Shown: positions 22,987 through 40,288 of the stretch, in pieces
Position numbering within the stretch: the first letter of the stretch is position 1
Layout: each line of letters begins with the position of its first letter
Source: Daucus carota subsp. sativus
Taxonomy: Eukaryota; Streptophyta; Magnoliopsida; Apiales; Apiaceae
NCBI RefSeq assembly: GCF_001625215.2
Contig: NC_030383.2
Location: 48,604,380 to 48,668,379, forward strand
DNA length: 64,000 nt
Reading direction: 5' to 3'
Translations under genes and position numbers: made by a program
Notes under the pieces: model-generated
Databases searched by the model: none
The model's input: only the letters and a program-made list of their open reading frames with translations
Told to the model about the DNA's origin: nothing

Positions 22987-24174
22987 CATCAATTTTCCTA
23001 CAAGGCCCAAGAGTGAAATAGAGAGCAGCCCCAGCGGCAGGGGATCCTCAATCTGAATGTTAATTGTATCCTTTTATAACAATTTTTTATTTTATTTTTT
23101 ATTAATATAATGCTAAGTTAGTACTAAATAAATTATTCATTCACATAATAATTTTATCGACAATGGAACTAGACTGCTTTTTTTGTAACATAGTCGTTAT
23201 AATTACTATGATATAAATATTGTCATTTTTGTTATAAAATAACAGCCGCATAAATATTCACCTTTTTTACTCATTTCACAATCCATCACTCTACAAATGA
23301 ATCCAAATAATTCTGCTCATTCAGATCCAAATTCTAGTGTTCCCAATTTCAAATTATTTTCAAGTCCTTGTTTATCATGTAATGAAAATATTTCAAACCT
23401 AAATTTCTCAATTCTTCTAAGTTCTAATCAAAAAGTAAATCGAAATTATTTCATATCAACACTCAAATCGAAATTTTAAATTTTGGTTATCATCTCTAAT
23501 CACCGTGTAAATAATCAAACTACTCGTGAATCTTTTTGCGACATTTTTCGGAGCAGTATTATTGTACTTTCTACTAAATTTTCCTGCTTTGATTCTTCAC
23601 TATTTTATTTTCTCTGGTGACTTTCTAATAATTGATTTCAAATTTTTATTTATCAATGAAAATATTAGCATATGTTTGGTTCCTGACAACTGTTAGGGAA
23701 GTTTTAACTGGCTCATGATTTATGATGGACCGTTTGATTAATATTTAATAATCATGATTATAATAAAAGTTTAATATGTCAATTACTTATTAACCGTTGA
23801 ATGAGATAAAATAATCTCGTCTGGCGGTTAAAAAGTGTAAGACAAATCCCGTCCAATGCTTAAAAACATTGAACATATAAAAAGATATATCATAACAGAA
23901 TATATTAATATTATTATTATTATTACCATCAGTTAGCTAAAGAGCCGGAGCACCATTTTTGAAGAGTACTAAACATATACGGGGAACGTTTGGTTTTTGT
24001 TTTCTATTTTCAAAAATCTTCATTTATATAAAAAACCAAATGCCTAATTTCGAATGACTAGGGAATTCATTATTTCATTTTTCACGGTGAAAATAAGGCT
24101 ATGCCGGAGTCAATTTAGAGAGGACTGATTTCATGAATGTAGCAATTTTACTGCGGTAAAAAAATATAAATGAA
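22987..24174. other. Intergenic DNA upstream of the CP31-type gene
   Basis: AT-rich with an (ATT)n run near 23906-23925. Short reading frames at 23297-23479 show no recognisable protein. Nothing else is supported. Confidence 0.5.
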
Positions 24175-24182
24175 TATATAAA
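24175..24182 (+). promoter_or_regulatory. TATA box of the CP31-type gene
   Basis: TATATAAA, 77 bp before the start codon at 24259, followed by a pyrimidine-rich leader (CCTCTCCTCTTATCC). Confidence 0.6.
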
Positions 24183-24258
24183 TGGGCAATTCCCTGACCT
24201 CTCCTCTTATCCTATCCATCTCTTTCTCTCCGAAACCAAAACCCCTTTCACAAAAAAA

Positions 24259-27200
24259 ATGACTTCTGCGACTACAGCTACTTCATCTCTCATCAAGTCC
24301 CTTGCTTTATCAATACCCACTTCTTGTTCTTCCTTATCTTCCCCATTCAAATCTTCACTTCTCTCCTTACCCTCCAAGCCCATCGCATTCACTCACTTAT
24401 CTTCTTCATGGGTCTCTCTTAAACCCAAGATTTCTGGGTCTGTTCTGGTGCCATTTGTTGCACAGACCTCAGATTGGGCCCAAGAAAGTGGGCCTATTGA
24501 TGGGGTTGAGTCTGGAATTGATGTAATTACTGAAGATGTGGGAGTGATAGAAGAAGAAGAAGTGGTGGTTGAAGATGTTGAAGGTGAAGTGGAGGAGGAT
24601 TCTTATGAGGAGCCACCTGAGGAAGCTAAGGTCTTTGTGGGTAATTTGCCTTATGATTGTGATAGTGAGCAGCTGGCTGCTCTTTTTGGACAGGCTGGTG
24701 TTGTTGATATTGCTGAGGTAACAACTTTCTTGCTTTCTTGGGTGTGTTCTTTTTAATTCGATGTTCAGGGTATAATATATATGAAAGTTTTGAAATTTAA
24801 GTAGCTGGTGTGGCTCATTCATGATTTTTTTTTTGTTAAATTGGTTTACGATGTTGTAGTTTTCATGTTGTTGTGATGGATGTGAGGTAATTTAAGCTAT
24901 TTAATGTTAGAAAAATGGATTATATTAAATTGATGGGTGTGAAATGGGCTTGTATATGATAGTGTTGCTAATAAGTGTTAGGGTTGAACTTGTATTGGGA
25001 CATGAATCCATTAATAGAGCAGGAGAATATAATACAATCAGTAATCCTAAATAATGAATTTTTAGTATTACAAGACTGCAAGTTATAATTTTTGGTTGCT
25101 TAATTGTGTAGAGCTGTGTTGCGTCCACATTACTACATTACTACATTACTATGGTTGTCTTAGAGAAAAAAAAGAGAAAAAGGCAGTGGTTTTGAATATG
25201 ATTGTTATTTGTCAGTAAGATATGGCACAATAGTCCATATAAAATTATGGTTTTTTTTATTATTATTTTAAAGTTTGAATTACATTTTTGTATTGATGTT
25301 ACTGCACACTAACTAAAGTGATTGAAATGTGTTTGTGTGTGCTAGGTAATCTACAATAGGCAAACTGACCAAAGTCGAGGATTCGGGTTTGTGACAATGC
25401 ATACCGTAGAAGAAGCTGAGAAGGCTGTGGAGATGTTCAGTCAATATGTAAGTGTTTTTCATGATAGTTTTCTTTTTTAACCTATTTTTAATCCTTAACG
25501 ATTTTTCATCATTATTGAAAAAGGTTTTTGGATGGAAGCTGTGACAGTTTGATAAATTTGCACTCGCTAAAATTTAACTTGCAATATGTTTTATTACTGG
25601 ACTTGTTACCTCTGTTTCAAATCCAAATATCCAATACTTAATTAGCGTCTTTTAAATCTCGCAAGGAAGACTCCAACCAGTCACACTAATATGTTATTGT
25701 TGTGTAGCAGTTATTCATAAGTAGGGTAATTTAAGAATAATTAAAAATGAAAAATTGTTTCTATTAACTGGCACAAGATATATTTGGGCTTTTGAAGAAC
25801 CTATATTTGGTTTCTAACTTGCACCAAAGTAATTAGTGGGAACTAATATGATTTAAGTATTAGTGAATAGTGATTCATTTACACCAAAATAGTGAAGAAG
25901 TAACACCCCAATGTCTGTGTTATGTGCCACGGAAGATGCCTAAAGTTATACAGTTTTCATGTGCGCAAGTTTTCACATTTATTTTTTAATATTAGCTACC
26001 TGCTCATCTTATTAGTTTTCCCTACATGACTTTTCTGATTATAATATTATGTTACATAAATGAAATTGATACGTGCAACAGCTTACAAGTAATTTTGTTC
26101 TATCTGCTTACTTGCAAACTCACTCCCTTACCATTGAAGCGGAAGTATATATTAATTTGTTTTGTGTGTAAATGATTATTATGAGAAACTGGGAAACATT
26201 TAGCTTTTGGGTATTTTAAATAGTAAGTGCAAACCTGTGTCATAGGTCCTATATGCAAGTAATTATTCTTGCATTAGGAAGCTGATACTTGTATTGTTAT
26301 TCTTGCAATATATACTATACACCATCCTCTTTCAAAAATAGAAAGCTTGTATTTAAATAATAAATACATACAGTATTATGTCTGTGTTTATCATTTTGAG
26401 GTGCAAATACATACAGTTACAATATATATTCATCCAAATGATTTATCCTCCAACTTTTTTCTTTAACAATGATTAAAGATTTACATTATTTTGTCAAAAT
26501 AATTTATGCACTCCAAAAATAAATTAATAGAAGTACAATGTGTACTGCTGGCAGATGAGGAAGTGGGTGAATATGCTAGTTCATTGAATTTGCTATAAAG
26601 AATGGATATTATATAGTTAATTCTGAGGTGAAATTTGAGAACTCTTGTGAGCAACTTAATCTCCCTCCGTCCCCCTCATTTTTTCCTATTCTGCTTGTCT
26701 CTCAAAACTATTGCCCATAATTATGTTAATATATTTGAAAAACAATACAACTTTTTGGTAATTATTGGCTTATATAATGTAAGTGAATGAAAATGGGATG
26801 GAGGGAGTATTTGATGTGCTTCCAGAATCTTGCTTCAACACTTCCAATTTGAAAATGTTCCTGTGTCTTAACATAACTGTGTCTTTCATATGTTACTAGT
26901 ACCAGCTCCAACATGTATTTCAAATTCTTCTTTATATATTTTAATTATAAGATGAAGACTATTGGGTTTTGATTACTGATAGCCAACAATCTGTTGCAGG
27001 ATTTAAATGGAAGGTTTTTGACTGTAAACAAGGCTGCTCCTAGAGGTTCTCCTCCTGAAAGACCTGCCAGAATGTTTGAATCTTCTAACAGAATATATGT
27101 TGGCAACCTGCCATGGGATGTGGATAGTGGCCGTCTGGAGCAGCTTTTTAGCGAACATGGTAAGGTTGTTGATGCCCGAGTTGTTTCTGATCGAGAAACT

Positions 27201-27562
27201 GGTCGTTCACGTGGATTTGGATTTGTAACAATGGCTAGCGAGACGGAACTGAATGATGCCATTGCAGCTCTTGATGGAAAGGTAAATACTCCATACATTG
27301 CTAAAGAGAATTTTCTGAAAAGAGTTTAAAAAAGTTATATGTATCTCTTACACAGACACAAGCTGATAGGGAACAGGTAACGAACTTGTAAATTGTAAAT
27401 ATTTACTATTTAGACATTGATATCAAGTCTTTAGCTGTAAACCAGATAATACACTTAAATAATAATATATCTAATCATTGTCACATGTCATTTGCAATGT
27501 AGAGTATCGATGGAAGAGCAATCCGGGTGAATGTTGCAGAAGAACGCCCACGGCGATTCTAG
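24259..27562 (+). CDS. CP31-type chloroplast ribonucleoprotein, two RRMs
   Basis: Four exons, 24259-24717, 25346-25447, 27000-27281 and 27503-27562, encode 300 aa. The first 60-70 residues are Ser/Thr-rich and nearly free of acids ([20 protein letters not shown]), a typical chloroplast transit peptide. An acidic domain at about 91-122 ([17 protein letters not shown]) precedes RRM1 (about 124-200; RNP2 [11 protein letters not shown]1 RGFGFVTM) and RRM2 (about 218-296; RNP2 [11 protein letters not shown]1 RGFGFVTM). The protein ends [10 protein letters not shown]. This order defines the cpRNP family. CP31A and CP31B of Arabidopsis bind chloroplast mRNAs, stabilise them and support C-to-U editing; the same role is inferred here. 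Introns fall at conserved places inside both RRMs. Intron 2 is 1.55 kb and holds a Stowaway MITE. CP28/CP29 relatives are alternatives, but the acidic domain favours CP31. Confidence 0.93.
26661..26807. mobile_element. Short Stowaway-type MITE in intron 2 of the CP31-type gene
   Basis: CTCCCTCCGTCCCC at the left and GGGATGGAGGGAG at the right are inverted. TA follows the right end; the left flank has drifted to AAT. Confidence 0.75.
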
Positions 27563-28965: not shown

Positions 28966-29617
28966 GATGACTCCAGTCTATCAGCATCACTGTCAAGTTA
29001 ATTTTTCCTTTATTTGCAGCATTTTTACCGGATATTACCAGTACCGCAATCTGGTGAATCTATCACTTTTCATTTTTGCCAGACCTCAGAGTAAGATTGC
29101 GGAGTTTATGATATGTACGACCTTATATTTGTCATCAAGAACTGTTAAAATTTGAGATTTTTTTTCTAATAGTAGTTAAGCCCCTCGTTTATCAAGTCCT
29201 GGACCGGCACTGTGGACACTTAAATATATGCATCAGTTGAATATATGATGACAAATCGCGTGTTCTGGTAGCCAGAACTTTTAGAACCCTGCAACAGGTA
29301 CTTTGTTCTGGATAAATAGGTTACTAAACAAGCTTACTGGCTACTTCTGTCTTTTTGCAGTTCCTTATCTTCCGAAAGTTGAGTAAAGAAGAAAGGATAG
29401 AAGGTACTGAGGGGGAATATAGCGTGACCACAACAAAGGCAGGCTTCATATTAACGTTGGACATTATTTAATTTTGATTACAAGGTAGGTATCCTCGCCT
29501 TTATTCCACACCTATGTATCACTTTAATGTAGTATATATATCTAGCACTCACCTTCCTTGTAGTATCAAGAACTCGCAATTTAATCAATATTTGCTAGTT
29601 CAACTGATTAGAACACA

Positions 29618-32600
29618 ATGAGCAACATCAAACAGTTGGTGCCACCCCCTGCGGCCACAAATGCATCTGCTTTACAGCCGTTGAATCCTATGTCCTCTGT
29701 CCAGCAGCCAAGCAATACGATGCAGCAGGGAAATACTATGGCCAATTTGCAGTCAGCCGCTAATACTATGGCCAATATGCAGCAGGAACAGCAGCAGCAG
29801 CAACAACTACAGCAGCAGCAGCAGCAGCAACAACAACAACAACTGCAGCAGCAGCAGCAACAACAACTGCAGCAGCAGCAGCGCACTGGCAATGCTGGTG
29901 TTACTATGTATCCGACGAACACAATGACTAATATGTATCCAATGAACACGACGACCAATATGTATCCAGGGAATGCTGTGGCTAATTTTCATCCTGGTAA
30001 TCTTATGACAAACACCATGCAGCCAGTTGGGAATGCTTTGGCAGGTAGGCAGCCTATGAATCCTATGTTCAATCTGCAAAATCTGATCAAAGGTGACCGT
30101 AACATGTTCATGTCTGCGGATGACAATGTGATGATGAGGCAAATATACAGCACTCATACCCCTGATGGCAGAGTGATTAATGTCAAGCCACTACTCCATA
30201 TTGTTGAGGATATTTTGTCCTTCACTCACATGAGCAGTCCTCTTGATGCTACTAATTCACATGTAATGTTCTATACTGCAGCTACTATTCTTATTTTACA
30301 CACACACACACTGCCAAGTAACCAAGGATATGTTTAAGATGGTTTAATTTATGTTACAATCCCATGCAGGAGGTCCATATGGATGACACGACGCACCAGA
30401 CTGATGTGGTTACCATGGTTGAAGCTCTGTCCCACATAATTGATCGACTTTCCTGCGAGGTTAGTATACATTTCCTTTCACAATGTACTAACATACACAT
30501 CAGCAATTGCTAGAACATCATGAACAAGTTATTAAATTCTCTGTATACCTTATCAATATAGCCATAGATGTGACGATGTCATTTGATCCTCAATTCTCAA
30601 GCAAGAAAATTTCATGTTTCCAGATATCAATCAAGTGTTTGAGTGGCTCAGACGGACATGGGACAACAGTTTCCGTCCTGCACATGGTATCAAATTACCC
30701 GTGGGATGCAAAACTAGTACTAACACTAGCAGCATTTGCATTTAGCTATGGAGAATTTTGGCTGCTTGCTCAGCTTTACTCATCTAATCAACTTGCAAGA
30801 TCAATGGCCCTCCTCAAGCAGGTTCCGCTTATCATGGAGCACTCAGGGTCACTTAAACATCGGTTTGATGCAGTTAACAGTCTCCTCAGTTCGGTCATTG
30901 ATTTAACAAGAGCAATTATTGCTTTGGAGGAATTACCAAGCATGTATATTGCGAAGGATGTGCCTCCATTTTCCACTGCCATTGAAATTATCCCCACCGC
31001 TGTATACTGGAGCATCAGGAGTGTCATTGCTTGTGCAACCACCATTAGTTACCTGACTAGCATGGGCCATGAGTATGTTTACAGTACATTTGACTTGATC
31101 ACTAGATTTCTGCGCTAAATGTATAACATACTGTTAGAAAGCACGTTGTATCTTTCTAATCATTGTCTTAATGTTTAATTCATCAGGAACACGATATCAA
31201 TGACAGAGCTGTCGTGGGAACTGTCCACACTTGCTCAGAGGATCAAGCAGATGCATGAGCATCTTAAGAGGAATTTAGACAACTGCTACCGACACATAGG
31301 TTTTTTATATATGATATTACTAGATGCAATATATATATAAATCAACACTCTGTTTAATTTGTGACCTGGTCCATATGGCGATGAATAGGTGTATATAATT
31401 AATGTTTTGGTGTTTTTAGATGAGAAGATGAGAGCTGCAGCCTACGAGTCATTGAGGCATTTGTTCGATGTGACTCACATTGACAATATGAAAGTTCTCA
31501 GGGCTCTGATTTACCCAAGGGATGATATACAGCCACTGGTTGAAGGTTCTTCTAAGAGAAGGGTAAGAATGCAAAAAACAAATTACGGATCAAATATACC
31601 TGTATATACCTTGACTAATTATAATGTAACAATACATAACTTGACTTTAAACATATGGAAAACATGTACACATGCATACAGGTTCACCTAGACGTTCTTA
31701 GGAGGAAGAATGTCTTACTACTGATATCAGGCCTAGACATTTCCCCAGATGAGCTCTCCATTCTTGAACAGATATATAGTGAATCCCGTATGCATGGAAC
31801 AAGAATGGAGAGCCTGTATGAGTTAGTCTGGATTCCAGTCGTGGATCTTTCTCATGTCGTCCACTATGGAACCACCCCTGGGCACTACGGAACCACAACT
31901 GGACCATATGGAACCACCACTGAGACATTGCCAATGCAAAAGCATACTAGTACTCAGCCAGAAGATCACAGCCTGCAGTCAAGTACTTCAAAGTCAATTT
32001 CTCTGCTCTCATCAAGAAATATGGTGGATCCTCAAAACTCTTCTGCGATTTTTAAGCAGCACTGGACCGATCCTATGCAGAAGCGTTTTGATGAGCTAAC
32101 ATCAACTATGCCATGGTACTCTGTGTACCATCCATCAATTATTGATCAGGCAGTTGTTAGGTTTATAAAGGAGAGGTGGCACTTCAGGAAGAAGCCTATA
32201 TTGGTTGTTCTTGATCCCCAAGGAAAGGAATTGAGCCCTAATGCCATTCATATGATGTGGATATGGGGGACTACTGCATTTCCTTTTACTAGCTCCAGAG
32301 AACAGGCTCTTTGGAGGGATGAGACTTGGAGGCTTGAATTGCTTGTCAGTGGCATGGATCCAATCATCTACAATGACTGGGTGAGCTTTGACTTAATTTA
32401 AATCACTTCTAGTATTCTTATTCGTACTTTCAAACTTTTGGCTAATTGATCACATTTGCCTGGTTATAGATAAGAGACGGAAAGTTCATTATTCTGTACG
32501 GAGGGGAGGACATTGAATGGATCAGAAGATTCACAAACACAGCGCGGGCTGTGGCACAAGCTGCTGGAGTTCAGCTAGAGATGGCCTACGTGGGAAAGAG

Positions 32601-33114
32601 CACAAAGAGGGAAATGGTCAGGAGGGCAATGTCAACAATCACAGTGGAGAAGCTTAGCTACTGCTGGCAAGACCCCACAATGATTTGGTTCTTCTGGGCA
32701 AGAATGGAGAGCATGTTGTTTTCAAAGATCCAAGTGAAGAAAACAGATGACCATCTTGATCCATTAATGCAAGAAATCAAGAAACTGCTGAGTTACGACA
32801 AGAGTGGAAGTTGGGCTATGTTATGCAAAGGCTCATATATTGTGACTAGTGGGCATGCTCAAACTGTCTTGAGCGCATTCCTAGAATTTGATTCATGGAA
32901 AGAAAATGTTCCACTTAGAGGCTTTGATGTGTCATTCAAAGAATATCATGACAAGCTTCATGTTGCAAACCCGCCATGTTGCAGATTCGAGTTCTTGACC
33001 ACTGCTGGAAGAATCCCAGATGGCATGACATGCCCTGAGTGCCTCCAACATATGGAGAAGTATAGCACTTTCCTCTGTTGCCATGATGAGAATTCCATTT
33101 TCCTACCCCACTAG
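29618..33114 (+). CDS. Sieve element occlusion protein, tandem copy 1
   Basis: Seven exons (29618-30262, 30370-30459, 30624-31072, 31187-31299, 31420-31562, 31682-32380, 32470-33114) encode 927 aa. Residues 1 to about 157 are a Gln/Asn/Met-rich extension with a Gln tract at 55-88 broken by Leu, then MYPTNTM-like repeats at about 97-117. The SEO core starts near IKGDRNMFMSADDNVMMRQI (158) and PLLHIVEDILSF, continues through the N-terminal SEO domain and a thioredoxin-like middle part, and ends with the Cys-rich motif CCRFEFLTTAGRIPDGMTCP plus ECLQHMEKYSTFLCCH. Exon 6 holds an insert of three YGTTTGP-like heptads (genomic about 31862-31924) and a Ser/Thr-rich linker before WTDPMQKRFDELTSTMPWYS. 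SEO proteins form P-protein filaments in phloem sieve elements and seal them after wounding; this is inferred for this copy. The start codon is supported by the identical MSNIKQLVPPPAATNAS in copy 2. Confidence 0.93.
29780..29881 (+). repeat. CAG/CAA repeat encoding the Gln tract of SEO copy 1
   Basis: Mixed CAG and CAA codons with three CTG/CTA Leu interruptions encode residues 55-88, including one Glu. Codon mixing argues against pure slippage expansion and for a retained Gln-rich segment. Confidence 0.9.
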
Positions 33115-33627
33115 AAGCAACAGGGTCTCCTACAACAAATATCTATACTACTTTCTACACAGAGTGCCTTGGCAAGTAAAATAAAAGAGAACCTACCATA
33201 TGCTACCTCAGTTCTCTCTCTCTCTCTCTCTTTGTTTTTTTTTTTGTTGTGTGAAGTTTTCGGCAGTACCAGTCTGTCCTACAATGTTTAAAGTGTGAGA
33301 TTATTGTTCGAGTGTGTCAGTGTTGCTTTTGGTAAACTGAGAATATGTCCACCCATTATTATTAGCCTAAATAAATAAGCAAAGATTCTACTTTGATATA
33401 ATATTCTGATCCAGTATGATTTGCTTAATATATAGTAGCAATACACAATCTGCATTTCTTACATTTAGCTCCTACTAAAGTTTTCATAGCTCTTTAGTTA
33501 TCAATAACCAAATATTCAATCTTTATCCTAGTTAAGTATCCAATGTCTTGTTTGAGCTTTCCATACTGTTTAACTAATAATTCAGTTTTAAATTTTCTTA
33601 ATTCTGAAATTAAGAACATAACATTCT

Positions 33628-33770
33628 GGAGTCAGGGTGTCCAAGAAAACTGTTGTAGAAAGAGCTGATGGTAAAACCATTGAAGATTGCGTATTGAAGT
33701 GGCAGAAAGAGGTTGAAGAAATCTAGGAGAGTGATGAAGAATCTGGGAAAAACATTTTAACCAAAATAGA
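33628..33770 (+). pseudogene. Coding-like remnant of unknown origin
   Basis: One frame reads SGVRVSKKTVVERADGKTIE, then DCVLKWQKEVEEI, a stop, and ESDEESGKNILT. Composition is protein-like (amphipathic, Lys/Glu balance), unlike the surrounding AT-rich DNA, but there is no start codon or splice context and I do not recognise the parent gene. Confidence 0.3.
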
Positions 33771-33866
33771 GCATAAGCATCTTAACCAAACTCGGAACCA
33801 GCACCAGCACGACTGTGTTCAGTAAATTTAACTACTAAAAGGAAAAACATCTTAACCAAATACAGG

Positions 33867-33907
33867 TCAGTTCATTTTTATTTTATTTTTTGACAAGTTC
33901 AGTTCAT
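33867..33907 (-). repeat. T-rich micro-insertion between 9-bp direct repeats
   Basis: TCAGTTCAT occurs at 33867-33875 and 33899-33907, with similarity extending several bases further on both sides. The inserted part contains TTTTATTTTTTGACAA, which on the minus strand is TTGTC plus an A-rich tail. Confidence 0.45.
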
Positions 33908-34162
33908 ATTTAGAATACAGAAACCTGCACCATCTCACATATACTAGAGATTATCATAAAAAAAGCACAGATAGAACAGAAGTTGAAAACAGAATAGATA
34001 AATTAAAAGTCTTCAGGTTAAAAGATGGCACAGATTAACAGAGTTAAAATCTTGGAATTTATGTGACTACTGTAACAAAGTGAAAAGGGTTCAGCTGCAA
34101 AGTTAGATCATTCAATACATTAGAAACTTTTGGACATTCCATTGGGTGATGGTAAAAAAGAG

Positions 34163-34212
34163 ATGAAGCATTTAGCTAAAAAAAAAACAAGAAGGAAAAA
34201 AGTATGAAGCAT
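34163..34212 (+). repeat. A-rich micro-insertion between 9-bp direct repeats
   Basis: ATGAAGCAT occurs at 34163-34171 and 34204-34212. The 32 bp between are A-rich (A10 and A6 runs). Confidence 0.45.
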
Positions 34213-34729
34213 GGGATTTGTTCAGGAGTACTGTTGGTGCTTGTCAAAATTGCTAAATATCTTGCTAAAAAAGTGTGTGAGGTTGGTTAAGCATTGCCAG
34301 TTACATCTCATGATAAATCATGGATGCATTTGAACAATTTGAGAAGGGCAAAGTTGAATTTTATGTCATTTACATGTGGAGAAAAATGAATTTTGATTTG
34401 ATCAACTCGGAAATTATTTAAATTACATGTAAAGAAAAATGAGTTGTCAACTGGTTTGTCAGATTTGAACAACTTTTGGTGCTGCCAGAGTGCGGAAGCA
34501 TAGGCTTATGCAGGGCTGTAATGAAGCCGAGTTCGAGTTTGATTCGAGTTTTTTCTTACCATTTGAGCAAAACTTGATTAACTTATTTATCATTTTTTCC
34601 GGTTCATTAATGTCCGAGTCGAGTTATTAGTTATTACCGAGTCAAGTTGATATCAAATTTGGGCTGATCGAAATCTTTTTGTCGAGTGATTAGGCCCAAA
34701 TCAAAAGTTCAAAATCAGTGTTTAGAAGT

Positions 34730-34923
34730 CCATAAAAACTCCAAGAATTAGAATATCAAGCTCTGGTTTAATGGAAGAAAGTGCGGAGGATGTAAGCAGC
34801 CATGAACTTACTGGCATGCATAAGAAGGCAAGGAATTGCAAATTGTTGGAAGGCGTTGAGGATGTAACATATGATGAAACTCAAGATTATTACAGTCTTT
34901 CAACATTCATATCTTGCTCTTAG
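34730..34923 (+). pseudogene. Open coding-like segment, unknown
   Basis: About 64 codons without a stop, reading SSSGLMEESAEDVSSHELTG followed by a Lys/Arg stretch and LLEGVEDVTYDETQDYY. Polar, acidic composition resembles an exon of a regulatory protein, but no family is recognised and no flanking exons are found. It could be a captured fragment. Confidence 0.25.
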
Positions 34924-36138
34924 ACATTTGCCAAACCTCAAATTGAAGTTGCACTTTAAGCTAAGCTTTCGATATGCCCAAATTAAATTATTTCCATCAG
35001 CTTAGGATAGAATATCACTCCAATAAAAACTTTCACACTGCTGGTATTTGCTTATACTGAAGAGGAGGATCTGATCCACTGTAACAGATACAGACTAAAG
35101 ACTCAACTTGTCCATTCCCCTCGCAGCAACAACCACATTTGCCAAAACGTGAAAAGCATAGGTATTTAATCACATTCATTGAATGAGACTGTGTAAATAT
35201 GTTTTAATTACAATAAAATAATTCATCATAACATGTTATAAATTAACAAGGCCAGTAGGCGTAAATACTTGGTTTTAATAGATAATAAAAAGATCAGCCA
35301 GAACATGTTATATAAACTAAGGAGGCTTCACAAATACTACCAAAGTTTTAATGTTTCGGAGTTAATAGTATAATATAGATTTAAGCATTCAAACGCTTGT
35401 AATGTCGAAGTAATGAGGTTGGCTCCCCTATTTTGAAATCTGCAGGCAGTAGGGCGTTGATGTTAAAAATATGAAATCTGCCCAACTACAGCTAGAAGAT
35501 TCAACAGTAGTAGAGGTGTCTGTCACACCAATGATCTCTTGGTCTAACGCTCCTTGCTCGTCTTGCATGAGGTCGAGGCTTTGAAAAGCGTAAGATAGGT
35601 GTCTCAGTGTATTTAGTTATAAAGAAAACGCATGATCTGCCAGACGACTGCAGAAATTCTTTTGTTAATCATGTTAGTCACGTACTACCCATATTGTTTG
35701 TTCAAAATGTTAACATCAAGAAATCTTATACTAACAAATGTTTGAGTTTTAGTATCTTGAGCCTCGACCTCCTGTTCAATCTACAAATTATGCTGTTAGG
35801 AATGATGAGCAGGATGAAAAGTTTGAACATGTAGCCATGAATAATTCAAATTGCAATGGATGATGGATTGTTTCTTTTATATAATTTAAAAAGTTATCAA
35901 CTTAAATATAGATATGAACATCAAAATGTTTATCTACAAATAATACAAGTAGTTCTTCTCCACATCTCATGAAAAGGAAATGGTCCTAAGGACTGAAACA
36001 CGACAGAAAAAGTGAAATGAAGTGTGAGATTCAAGGAGATATGCAAGTACTTGAATTGATTTGTATATCCATGTTACTGAGCTTCAGTAAAGAAGAAAAA
36101 AGAACTGAGAAGAATCCAAATATAGAAAAGAAGAAGAA

Positions 36139-36320
36139 AAGAATGAGTAACAAACATTAATATCTTCCTTTATTGGTATTGTTTTGTTGCTTTCTTCTTC
36201 ACTTTGAAAGAATCAGAACAATCCCAGACAATGTCATGCACGCAAATAATATAAATTACTTAAAGCAAAATGATTAATTTGATTAGTGCTTACACTTGAA
36301 ACACATTGGAGGATGCAGTG
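36139..36320 (+). promoter_or_regulatory. Upstream block shared by both SEO genes (copy 2)
   Basis: Counterpart of 28779-28965: AATGAGTAACAAACATTAAT, then AGAATCAGAACAATCCCAGA, CACGCAAATAATATAA, CTTAAAGCAAAA and CTTGAAACACATTGGAGGAT in the same order, with small insertions and deletions. Confidence 0.55.
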
Positions 36321-36579
36321 TTGAAATTTTAGAAAGGTACTCAGGTTCAGATAATTAGACAATAATAACCCAAGATAATAAAGTACATTTCTTAATTATT
36401 AAACTAAGAGGTTGCTAATCTTTCCGAGAGTTTATTTAAAGGAAGGTATATGTGGGGTATGTAGTGTCCCTAAAACTGAAAATAAGCTTCAGATTAACGA
36501 TGGAAATTATTCATTTTTCATGACAAGGAAGGTATAGTCACCTTTATTCTACCTTGGAGCATTGTATTGTTATGTAGTG

Positions 36580-36587
36580 TATATAAA
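36580..36587 (+). promoter_or_regulatory. TATA box of SEO copy 2
   Basis: TATATAAA, 80 bp before the start codon at 36668. Transcription would begin near 36610-36620, downstream of the in-frame ATG at 36605, which supports the later start. Confidence 0.6.
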
Positions 36588-36667
36588 GAGCATACTCAGA
36601 CTCCTTGAAGGATATAGAACTAGCAATTGATCATCTATATGCTAGCTTAACTGAAAATTTTAAAACA

Positions 36668-39600
36668 ATGAGCAACATCAAACAGTTAGTACCACCTCCT
36701 GCAGCGACAAATGCATCTACTTTGCAGCAACTGAGTAATGCAATGTCTTCTGCGCAGCAGCCAAGCAACACGATGCAGCCCTCCAGTTCTGTGGGCAATA
36801 TGCAGGGCAGCGCGAATGCTCTCAACAAAATGCAGCAGGGGAATACAATGGCCAATTTGCAGGCCAGCGCGAATGCTCTTAACAAAATGCAGCAGGGGAA
36901 TACTATGGCCAATTTGCAAGCAGCCGCCAATGCTATGGCCAACATGCAGCAGCAACAGCAGCAGCAGCAGCAGCAACAACAACAACTTCAGCAGACTGGC
37001 AATCCAATGTCCGGTATGCAGACTGGAAATGCAATGACTGCTATGCAGCCATCTGGGAGTTCAATGGCCACTATGTATCCAACAAATACAATGGCGACCA
37101 ATATGTATCCGACAAATACAATGACCAATATGTATCCAACGAATACAATGGCCAATATGTATCCAGGAAATGTGGTGACTAACTTGCTTCCGGTGAATCC
37201 AATGACAAGCACCATGCCACCAGTGGGGAATGCTTTGGCTCTTAGGCATCCTATGAATTCCATGTTCAATCAGCAAAATATAATCAAGGGTGACCGCAAC
37301 ATGTTCATGTCTTCGGATGACAATGTGATGATGAGGCAAATATATGATACTCATACTCCTGATGGCAGAGTACTTTATGTCAAGCCACTACTCCATATTG
37401 TGGAGGATATCTTGTCCTTCACTCATATGACTAGTCCTCTGGATGCTGCCAATGCACATGTAATCTTTATATACTGCATTGCTGTCTTAATTATCACTCA
37501 AACTGCTAAATATCAAGTAATTGTATGCAATGGCAGTTTAATCAAAATTTTGATCACATGCAGGGTGCCCATATGGATGACAAAACCCACCAATCTGAAG
37601 TGATTTCTATGCTTGAAGCACTGTCTCACTTAATTGACCGGATTTCTTGTGAGGTATATATCTCTTATTTTATTTTATGTACCAGTGAGCAAAATATATA
37701 TCAGTTGCTATATTGATGTGACTATTTATATTTGATCCTAACAATGAAATCACATATATTTACAGATATCAATCAAGTGTTTGAGTGGTTCAGACGGACA
37801 TGTGACAACAGTGTCCATACTAAACATGGTATCAAATTATCCATGGGATGCAAAACTAGTACTAACTCTAGCAGCATTTGCTTTCAGCTATGGAGAATTC
37901 TGGCTGCTTGCTCAACTTTACTCATCAAATCAACTTGCAAGGTCCATGGCCATACTTAAGCAAGTTCCACTCATCATGGAGCACTCTGGCTCTCTTCAGC
38001 ATCGGTTTGATGCAGTTAACACACTCCTCAATTCGATCATGGATTTGACGAGGACCATCATTGCATTGGAAGAGTTACCTACTATGTACATTGCGAAGGA
38101 TGTGCCTCCATTTTCAAGTGCCATTGAAACTATCCCAACTGCTGTATACTGGAGTATCAGAAGTGTCATTGCCTGTGCAACTACCATTAGTTTACTGACT
38201 AGCATGGGCCACGAGTAAGTTCGTTTACTGTACAGATGACTCAATAATTTATCAAACTTGTTTAATATTGTTGAATAACACATACTATGTAATTCACTAT
38301 TCAAATGCATTGTTTTATTTAATTATTGTCGTAATTTTAATTCATTAGGTACACGATATCAATGACAGAGCTGTCATGGGAACTGTCCACATTTGCTCAG
38401 AGGATCAAGCAGATACATGATCATCTCAAGAGGAATTTAGATATCTGCTACCTACACATAGGTTCTTATATATGATATTTCTAGATACAAGATATATAAA
38501 CCAGCATTCTGTTTAACTTGTGACATTGTTCATATGGCGATGAATAGGTGTATATGATTAATGTTTTAATGTTTTTAGATGAGAAGATGCGAGCTGCTGC
38601 TTATGAGTCACTAAGGCATTTATTTGACGTGACACACATCGACAATATGAAAGTTCTTAGGGCTCTGATTTACCCCAGGGATGATATACAGCCACTAGTT
38701 GAAGGTTCTTCTAAAAGAAGGGTATGAATACAACATAAGAATTATAAATAGTACTTATATGGATGAGCCTGATTTTATTTTTTTTTAGTAGCAATAGCTT
38801 ATCACCTTAGGAGAAACTGAAAACATATATGTAAAATACAGGTTCACCTGGATGTGCTAAGAAGAAAGAATGTCTTGCTACTGATATCAGGCCTTGACAT
38901 CTCTGCGGACGAGCTCTCCATTCTTGAACAGATTTATAGCGAGTCCCGTATCCATGGAACAAGAATGGAAAGCCTATATGAGTTGGTCTGGATTCCAATT
39001 GTGGACCTTTCTCATGTTACCCATCCGGGAACCACCCCTGGGATCTATGGAACCACCACTGGACCGTATGGAACAACCACCGGACCATATGGAACAACTA
39101 CTGACACATTTCCACTGCAGAAACATACTGGTAACCTGCCAGAAGATCACAGTCTTCACTCCAGTAATTCGAAGACGATGTCTGTGTTTTCATCAAAAAA
39201 TTTGATGGATCCTCAAAACTATTCCGCTGTCTTTAAGCAGCACTGGACTGATCCTATGCAGAAGCGCTTTGATGAGCTTACATCGACAATGCCATGGTAC
39301 TCTGTGTACCATCCATCCATCATTGATCAGGCAGTTGTCAGGTTTGTGAAGGAGAGATGGCACTTCAGGAAGAAGCCTATACTAGTTGTTCTTGATCCCC
39401 AAGGAAAGGAGGTGAGCCCTAATGCACTTCACATGATGTGGATTTGGGGGAGTACCGCCTTTCCTTTCACTAGTTCCAGAGAAGAGGCTCTTTGGAGAGA
39501 TGAGACTTGGAGGCTTGAATTGCTTGTCAGTGGCATGGATCCAATTATCTACAATGATTGGGTGAGCTTTAAATCACTTTTAGTATTCTTACTCATATTT

Positions 39601-40288
39601 TTAAACTTTTGGCTAATTGATCACATTTGCTTGGTTATAGATAAGAGATGGCAAGTTCATAATTCTGTATGGAGGGGAGGACATTGACTGGATCAGGCGA
39701 TTCACAAACACTGCGCGGGCTGTGGCACAAGCGGCTGGAGTTCAGCTCGAGATGGCCTACGTGGGAAAGAGCACAAAGAGGGAAATGGTCAGGAAGGCAA
39801 TGTCAACAATCACAGTGGAGAAGCTTAGCTACTGCTGGCAAGACCCCACAATGATATGGTTCTTCTGGGCAAGAATGGAGAGCATGTTGTTTTCAAAGAT
39901 TCAAGTGAAGAAAAGAGATGACCATCTTGATCCACTAATGCAAGAAATCAAGAAACTGCTGAGTTATGACAAGAGTGGAAGTTGGGCAATGTTATGCAAA
40001 GGCTCATACATAGTCACTAGTGGGCATGCTCAAACTGTCTTGAGCACTCTTCTAGAATTCGATACATGGAAAGAATACGTTCCACTCAGGGGATTTGATG
40101 TTGCATTCAAAGAATATCATGACAAGCTTCATGTTGCCAACCCGCCGTGCTGTAGATTTGAGTTCTTGACCACTGCTGGAAGAATTCCAGATGGCATGAC
40201 ATGCCCTGAGTGTCTCCAGCATATGGAGAAGTACAGCAGCTTCCTTTGTTGCCATCCTGAGAACGCGGCGTACCTGCCCTATAGATAA
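36668..40288 (+). CDS. Sieve element occlusion protein, tandem copy 2
   Basis: Seven exons (36668-37459, 37564-37653, 37766-38214, 38349-38461, 38579-38721, 38842-39561, 39641-40288) encode 984 aa, with the same intron phases as copy 1; exons 2-5 have identical lengths. The Gln/Asn/Met-rich extension is longer (about 206 residues). It has a 19-residue unit (SANALNKMQQGNTMANLQA) repeated in tandem from residue 48, a Gln tract at 94-109 and four MYPTNTM-like repeats at about 136-166. The core begins IIKGDRNMFMSSDDNVMMRQ. Exon 6 carries four YGTTTGP-like heptads against three in copy 1, which accounts exactly for its extra 21 nt. The C-terminal Cys-rich motif is intact. The last exon is almost identical to that of copy 1. 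Role as for SEO proteins in general: filamentous P-protein of sieve elements (inferred). An in-frame ATG 63 nt upstream is not preferred because of the TATA position. Confidence 0.93.
36809..36922 (+). repeat. 57-bp coding tandem repeat in SEO copy 2
   Basis: Two units of 57 bp differ at only a few bases and encode the 19-residue unit twice. A third, degenerate unit (AAANAMANMQ) follows. Copy 1 has a single equivalent. Confidence 0.85.

Follow-up and report, generated by a model that had tools for sequence, protein, structure and literature searches.

Two neighbouring SEO genes on C3 of carrot (Daucus carota subsp. sativus) open with a long stretch rich in glutamine, asparagine and methionine ahead of the conserved SEO core, which raises the question whether this stretch is part of the protein, how it arose and what it might do there. 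Both genes lie in a window of 64,000 nucleotides (C3:48604380-48668379), by which we mean the whole stretch of DNA that was analysed and whose numbering is used wherever no contig is named; their relatives were sought in the same genome (441 Mb, 11 contigs). A first-pass annotation, made from the letters of the window alone, had described the pair as SEO proteins with a prion-like N-terminal extension. Codon-level comparison indicates that the extension is in frame and constrained as protein, and we tentatively propose that it serves as an interaction arm in SEO assembly.

Gene models and composition of the extension

Gene models built from GT..AG splice sites and open reading frame gave two complete SEO genes in tandem, with seven exons each, on the forward strand. 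Gene 1 (29618..33114; 927 aa), which is also backed by genome-wide SEO_N exon matches, has exons at 29618-30262, 30370-30459, 30624-31072, 31187-31299, 31420-31562, 31682-32380 and 32470-33114. Gene 2 (36668..40288; 984 aa) has exons at 36668-37459, 37564-37653, 37766-38214, 38349-38461, 38579-38721, 38842-39561 and 39641-40288. The span first annotated, 29618-37459, thus began correctly at the start of gene 1 but ended with exon 1 of gene 2, which runs on to 40288. The assignment to the SEO family is confirmed by Pfam matches of the gene 2 protein to SEO_N (PF14576; residues 216-501 of 984, E 3e-113) and SEO_C (PF14577; residues 741-974, E 1.1e-92), and the exon-1 product of gene 1 likewise matches SEO_N (E 2.9e-10). 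A phmmer search of gene 2 exons 3, 6 and 7 against solved structures gave nothing significant (best E 0.38, 0.67 and 0.71), and the exon-7 alignment found no relatives in bacterial and archaeal genome contigs or viral contigs, as expected for a plant gene.

Translation from the ATGs at 29618 and 36668 places 158 residues in gene 1 (29618..30091) and 207 in gene 2 (36668..37288) ahead of the G of GDRNMF, close to the 157 and 206 residues before the core that had been reported. In both genes this tail and the start of the core share exon 1. The tails are of low sequence entropy and enriched in Q, N, M, T, A and P, with 25.3 percent Q, 13.3 percent N and 9.5 percent M in gene 1 and 15.5, 14.5 and 12.6 percent in gene 2; charged residues (D/E/K/R) number 5 of 158 and 5 of 207. 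Within 80 residues the count of Q+N reaches 44 (gene 1) and 37 (gene 2), against 9 and 9 in the remainder of each protein, and the pair takes the two top ranks when all stop-to-stop frames of the window with 80 codons or more (80 in number) are compared, the third reaching 19. Glutamine tracts are present in both copies, as first described, and use CAG and CAA in blocks. Tandem arrays with periods of 3, 24, 27, 30 and 57 nt run through the extensions; in gene 2 they include 57-nt repeats (36792-36952), polyQ and 27-nt repeats of MYPTNTM type (37062-37165). The MYPTNTM repeats that had been ascribed to the pair hold for gene 2, with three exact units, but gene 1 has the exact unit only once, its other units on the 27-nt period being degenerate.

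The nearest relative of the pair is a gene on the minus strand of C4 (C4:31595147-31591966; 818 aa), whose first exon opens with a 72-residue tail that aligns to parts of the pair's extension. Stretches such as MQQGNxMANLQAAANAMAN and NMYPGNAVA are shared, and several Met and Asn are kept at aligned positions; polyQ and MYPTNTM repeats are absent from this tail. Exon 1 measures 645 nt in gene 1, 792 nt in gene 2 and 387 nt in the C4 gene, lengths that differ by multiples of three. A cysteine-rich C-terminal region is present in the alignment of all three tailed proteins.

Constraint on the extension and the start of translation

Over the extension, genes 1 and 2 differ by 49.8 synonymous changes at 94.3 sites and 69.2 nonsynonymous changes at 379.7 sites, giving a nonsynonymous to synonymous ratio (omega) of 0.228 (bootstrap 0.129-0.375; Fisher p 3.5e-11, in a test that assumes independent sites and on an alignment that is uncertain in the repeat middle). 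Against the C4 gene omega is 0.232 and 0.174 over 72 codons, the three pairwise values thus spanning 0.17-0.23. Without the polyQ and repeat middle, the value for genes 1 and 2 is 0.145 (0.060-0.284), compared with 0.094 in the core. In the other two frames omega over the whole extension is 1.54 and 1.21 between genes 1 and 2 and 0.78-2.12 in the comparisons with C4; short sub-regions are noisier, and one is contrary, with omega 0.21 and 0.25 over the 20 codons of the end piece when this is read in frame 1 and compared with C4.

These values bear on whether translation might instead begin downstream at the core, the extension then being a leader or 5' untranslated region, an alternative that the first-pass annotation had itself raised. 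In-frame Met codons are indeed numerous in the extension (15 in gene 1 and 26 in gene 2, the first included), and a three-codon upstream open frame at -29 in gene 2 (36639-36650), absent in gene 1, also counts for a downstream start. Against this, the synonymous excess is strong in the coding frame, whereas the other two frames show none over the whole extension. TATA-like boxes, matched by consensus only, lie ahead of the extension in gene 1 (29533..29540, forward strand; TATAWA at -85 and -83 from the ATG), in gene 2 (36580..36587, forward strand; about 88 nt before the ATG) and in the C4 gene (at -57), and in gene 1 and the C4 gene the ATG of the extension is the first one past the box. Since the tail lies in the exon of the core, is constrained in a frame-specific manner and follows TATA-like boxes, a downstream start appears highly improbable, and we rejected it on the codon-level constraint.

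Relatives in the carrot genome and origin of the tail

The genome-wide search with SEO_N exons found additional SEO loci, located on C9, C4 and C7. For the other SEO first exons that were examined (13 of 13), the distance from the first in-frame Met to the core is 0-23 residues, as measured within the core-bearing first exon alone; one of these 13, at C9:45366693, has no such in-frame Met and looks like a fragment. Two SEO fragments in which no first exon was recognised (C9:43412494 and C4:16664328) stand outside the 13. In a tree of 15 sequences, from which insert columns were removed and in which the partial copies C9c, C9d, C9i and C4a (about 230-250 residues each) were included, gene 1, gene 2 and the C4 gene form one clade with support 1.000 and a stem of 0.50; the position of the divergent C9a has a support of only 0.273. 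By these alignments the tail is confined to that one clade, as far as SEO genes of this genome were examined. Synonymous divergence (dS) in the core is 0.53 within the pair and 0.55-0.64 between the pair and the C4 gene, so that the tail probably was present already in the ancestor of the three genes, predates their split and has long been retained.

That the tail was acquired by exon shuffling or captured from elsewhere in the genome was considered and set aside in favour of expansion within the exon, since a search of the genome with the extension of gene 2 (E up to 10) matched SEO first exons only (four stretches in three genes; the search is incomplete in that simple repeats were skipped and scoring was limited to the best candidates) and the tail shares its exon with the start of the core.

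At C9:45343400-45377200 some ten SEO genes or gene fragments lie close together; for several of them later exons were not found, and these are possible pseudogenes.

A second shared addition in exon 6

Exon 6 carries extra low-complexity residues in the same three genes: 70 in gene 1 (31853..32062, forward strand), 77 in gene 2 (39013..39243, forward strand) and 49 in the C4 gene, the borders in the pair being set by paralog alignment. The insert contains YGTTTGP-type repeats in the pair, with tandem repeats at 31862-31927 and 39028-39103. It is missing in all eight paralogs with a readable junction, where about two residues stand instead: the flanks are 6 nt (two residues) apart in seven (C9b, C9e, C9f, C9h, C9j, C4b and C7), and C9a reads straight through; the four partial copies that stop short of the junction are not among the eight. 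Constraint on the insert is evident between genes 1 and 2 (omega 0.221) and in a second pair (0.201), but not clear-cut in the third (0.579, p 0.12). SEO proteins have a potential thioredoxin fold between the N- and C-terminal domains, and in gene 2 the insert sits just ahead of a weak thioredoxin-like segment (Thioredoxin_8, residues 669-718, E 0.00086) that scores 20 bits against a cut-off of 27. Tail and insert being common to the same three genes, this lineage has, as judged from the paralog alignments, two low-complexity additions and not one.

Neighbouring genes and a repeat on C3

Upstream of the pair, exons of an RRM-type RNA-binding protein were recognised at 24160-27329 (RRM_1, 3.1e-21 and 4.7e-6), and downstream an open frame at 43393-43812 matches COX24_C (8e-08). 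The latter is the one neighbour that was searched as a test of synteny with the C4 copy; nothing else in the genome matched it, and a block duplication is thus unsupported.

Of the 27 matches listed for a 293-nt piece, three are the SEO genes themselves and the remaining 24 are copies of the piece, which is similar to exon 4, intron 4 and exon 5 of SEO genes of the tailed clade (79-80 percent to the pair; source-like stretch at about 31207-31525). All 24 are on C3, with copies at 29.05-29.26 Mb, 64.52-64.559 Mb and 3.73-3.74 Mb. Five 4-kb copies that were compared are about 96-99.7 percent alike over aligned pieces; equivalent copies are spaced by about 34.3 kb, and one match stops 61 nt short of the contig end. 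A segmental repeat on C3 thus seems to have captured an SEO fragment.

Discussion

That a disordered N-terminal SEO segment may aid self-assembly is already in print for a shorter form (in the sections available of PMC3017817 and PMC12677703). A close parallel is tobacco NtSEO (LOC107790470), described in 2025, which like the carrot proteins combines SEO N- and C-terminal domains, C-terminal cysteines and an N-terminal low-complexity segment. In the portions of that work drawn on here, the disordered N-terminal segment of NtSEO measures 42 aa, and the droplets that the protein makes show recovery after bleaching; aggregation is favoured by oxidation and runs via four C-terminal cysteines, removal of the cysteines abolishes droplets, and the authors propose that contacts among disordered segments help (PMC12677703). 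As early as 2010 a disordered N-terminal motif M4 of 20-35 aa was described in SEO subgroups 5 and 6, its role being unclear (PMC3017817). The genes of that study resemble the present ones in their disordered N-terminal stretch and tandem clustering, but the carrot tail is far longer than M4, and the Results there describe neither a tail of this kind nor an insert in exon 6; its main text lacks the words 'glutamine', 'methionine' and 'low complexity'. Legume forisome SEO-F proteins (MtSEO-F, GmSEO-F) are members of the same family; forisomes are calcium-reactive and are described, in the text available, as exclusive to Fabaceae. Unlike SEO-F, which was found in a 75-kDa band (PMC3017817, as far as available), the pair has 927-984 aa. 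By word search 'N-termin', 'disorder' and 'glutamine' are absent from the available text of PMC11983751, PMC3700381 and PMC5909683. Our searches of the open-licence literature, in which most of the papers listed were judged by their entries alone, found neither a long Q/N/M-rich tail or exon-6 insert in SEO proteins nor a paper combining phloem, P-protein and prion-like. The additions of the present analysis are the third gene with its 72-residue tail on C4 and the exon-6 insert in the same three genes.

We suggest, with confidence just short of even, that the tail is a translated interaction arm that tunes the bundling of SEO proteins into filaments and gels. The tail, which is long, almost free of charge and rich in Q/N/M and probably ranges from disordered to partly helical, would project from the SEO core, and weak multivalent contacts of its Gln, Asn, Met and Tyr residues would tune how monomers bundle, adding to contacts of the core and to disulphides from the C-terminal cysteines. 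An older short tail of about 70 residues would have been lengthened in the C3 pair through repeat expansion. Given the behaviour of tobacco NtSEO, and since the carrot proteins combine a cysteine-rich C-terminus with a tail that is some four to five times as long, a stronger multivalent arm is the likeliest form of this proposal; disorder, the assembly role and the direction both of the change and of its effect are inferred.

The idea first offered, that an added assembly module could change gelation or forisome-like behaviour, is supported in part only. By a compositional rule of thumb a prion-like segment holds at least 30 Q+N in 80 residues, and the PAPA amyloid propensity, with its own set of parameters, has a cut-off of 0.05. 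The prion-like label given at first holds by the former, which both copies pass, but the PAPA-type score is borderline (0.052 in gene 1 and 0.034 in gene 2). This borderline score is one of several results that weigh against an assembly arm. The C4 tail fails the count rule (23 Q+N in 80), has a PAPA-type score of -0.092 and is barely less complex than the core. FoldIndex values of -0.071, 0.033 and 0.146 across the three tails do not point clearly to disorder. AlphaFold2 gave a mean pLDDT of 44.4 for exon 1, with a helix at residues 44-106 (pLDDT about 55-74), and of 31.7 for exon 6; the inputs were exon pieces with two-row alignments and the known core part of exon 1 scored low too, so that these values are not taken as proof of disorder. 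Part of the tail may accordingly be helical and not disordered, and a helical, Q/L/M-rich coiled-coil arm would be as compatible with the data as an amyloid-like one, coiled-coil formation having been proposed for polyQ. Weak Pfam matches of the tail (TFIIA, SpoIIP, TERB2) were all below cut-off and were dismissed as compositional. Moreover, in tobacco it is cysteine loss that abolishes droplets, and section 2.6 of PMC12677703 contains no deletion of the disordered segment. Finally, a tail of 72, 158 or 207 residues among paralogs is what a merely tolerated segment might look like.

The tail might indeed be such a tolerated spacer, a short ancestral segment lengthened by slippage and unequal exchange, tolerated because it is exposed, in which neither length nor glutamine content has a specific function beyond solubility. 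The differing lengths, the 3-, 24-, 27-, 30- and 57-nt tandem repeats and an omega that is higher in the repeat-rich middle (0.266) than in the head (0.061) between genes 1 and 2 speak for it; on the other hand, head and end together are constrained about like the core (0.13-0.15 against 0.09-0.15 in the three pairs), and Met and Asn are retained in C4, so that we regard it as possible but on the doubtful side. A slightly better prospect, if still somewhat below even, is that the tail is the local form of a disordered segment common to a SEO subgroup across eudicots and is neither specific to this lineage nor new, which would be compatible with the other readings. Motif M4 in subgroups 5 and 6 and the 42-aa segment of NtSEO fit this, as does the long clade stem of 0.50, which suggests that the lineage is old and that orthologs of it probably exist elsewhere. 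However, the SEO N-terminal domain of NtSEO starts at residue 30 and is separated from the C-terminal domain by 163 residues, compared with residue 216 and a gap of 240 in gene 2 (158-207 residues preceding the core in the pair), and neither addition seems to be present in NtSEO, although domain borders may be set differently (PMC12677703, as far as available).

An extension of the interaction arm, which we consider unlikely, is that the Met/Gln/Asn tail acts as a reversible, redox-tunable switch of P-protein assembly. Oxidation of Met in a burst at wounding or aphid attack would loosen the contacts of the tail while the C-terminal cysteines cross-link, giving two opposed redox controls over filament bundling, and the exon-6 insert would provide a second clade-specific contact surface. 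The Met-rich low-complexity region of yeast Pbp1 (ataxin-2) forms droplets and hydrogels, and these melt when Met is oxidised (PMC8394241, in the part available); the likeness is one of composition alone, and no homology is claimed.

P-proteins may disperse, stay as bodies or contract, and the cause of these differences has been sought in departures from the common SEO pattern (PMC5909683, in the text available). With tails of 72, 158 and 207 residues and near-none in one genome, a role of the N-terminus as an assembly arm is directly testable in carrot. Should the tail prove important, this would have consequences for the sealing of wounds, for feeding by aphids and for SEO-based filament materials.

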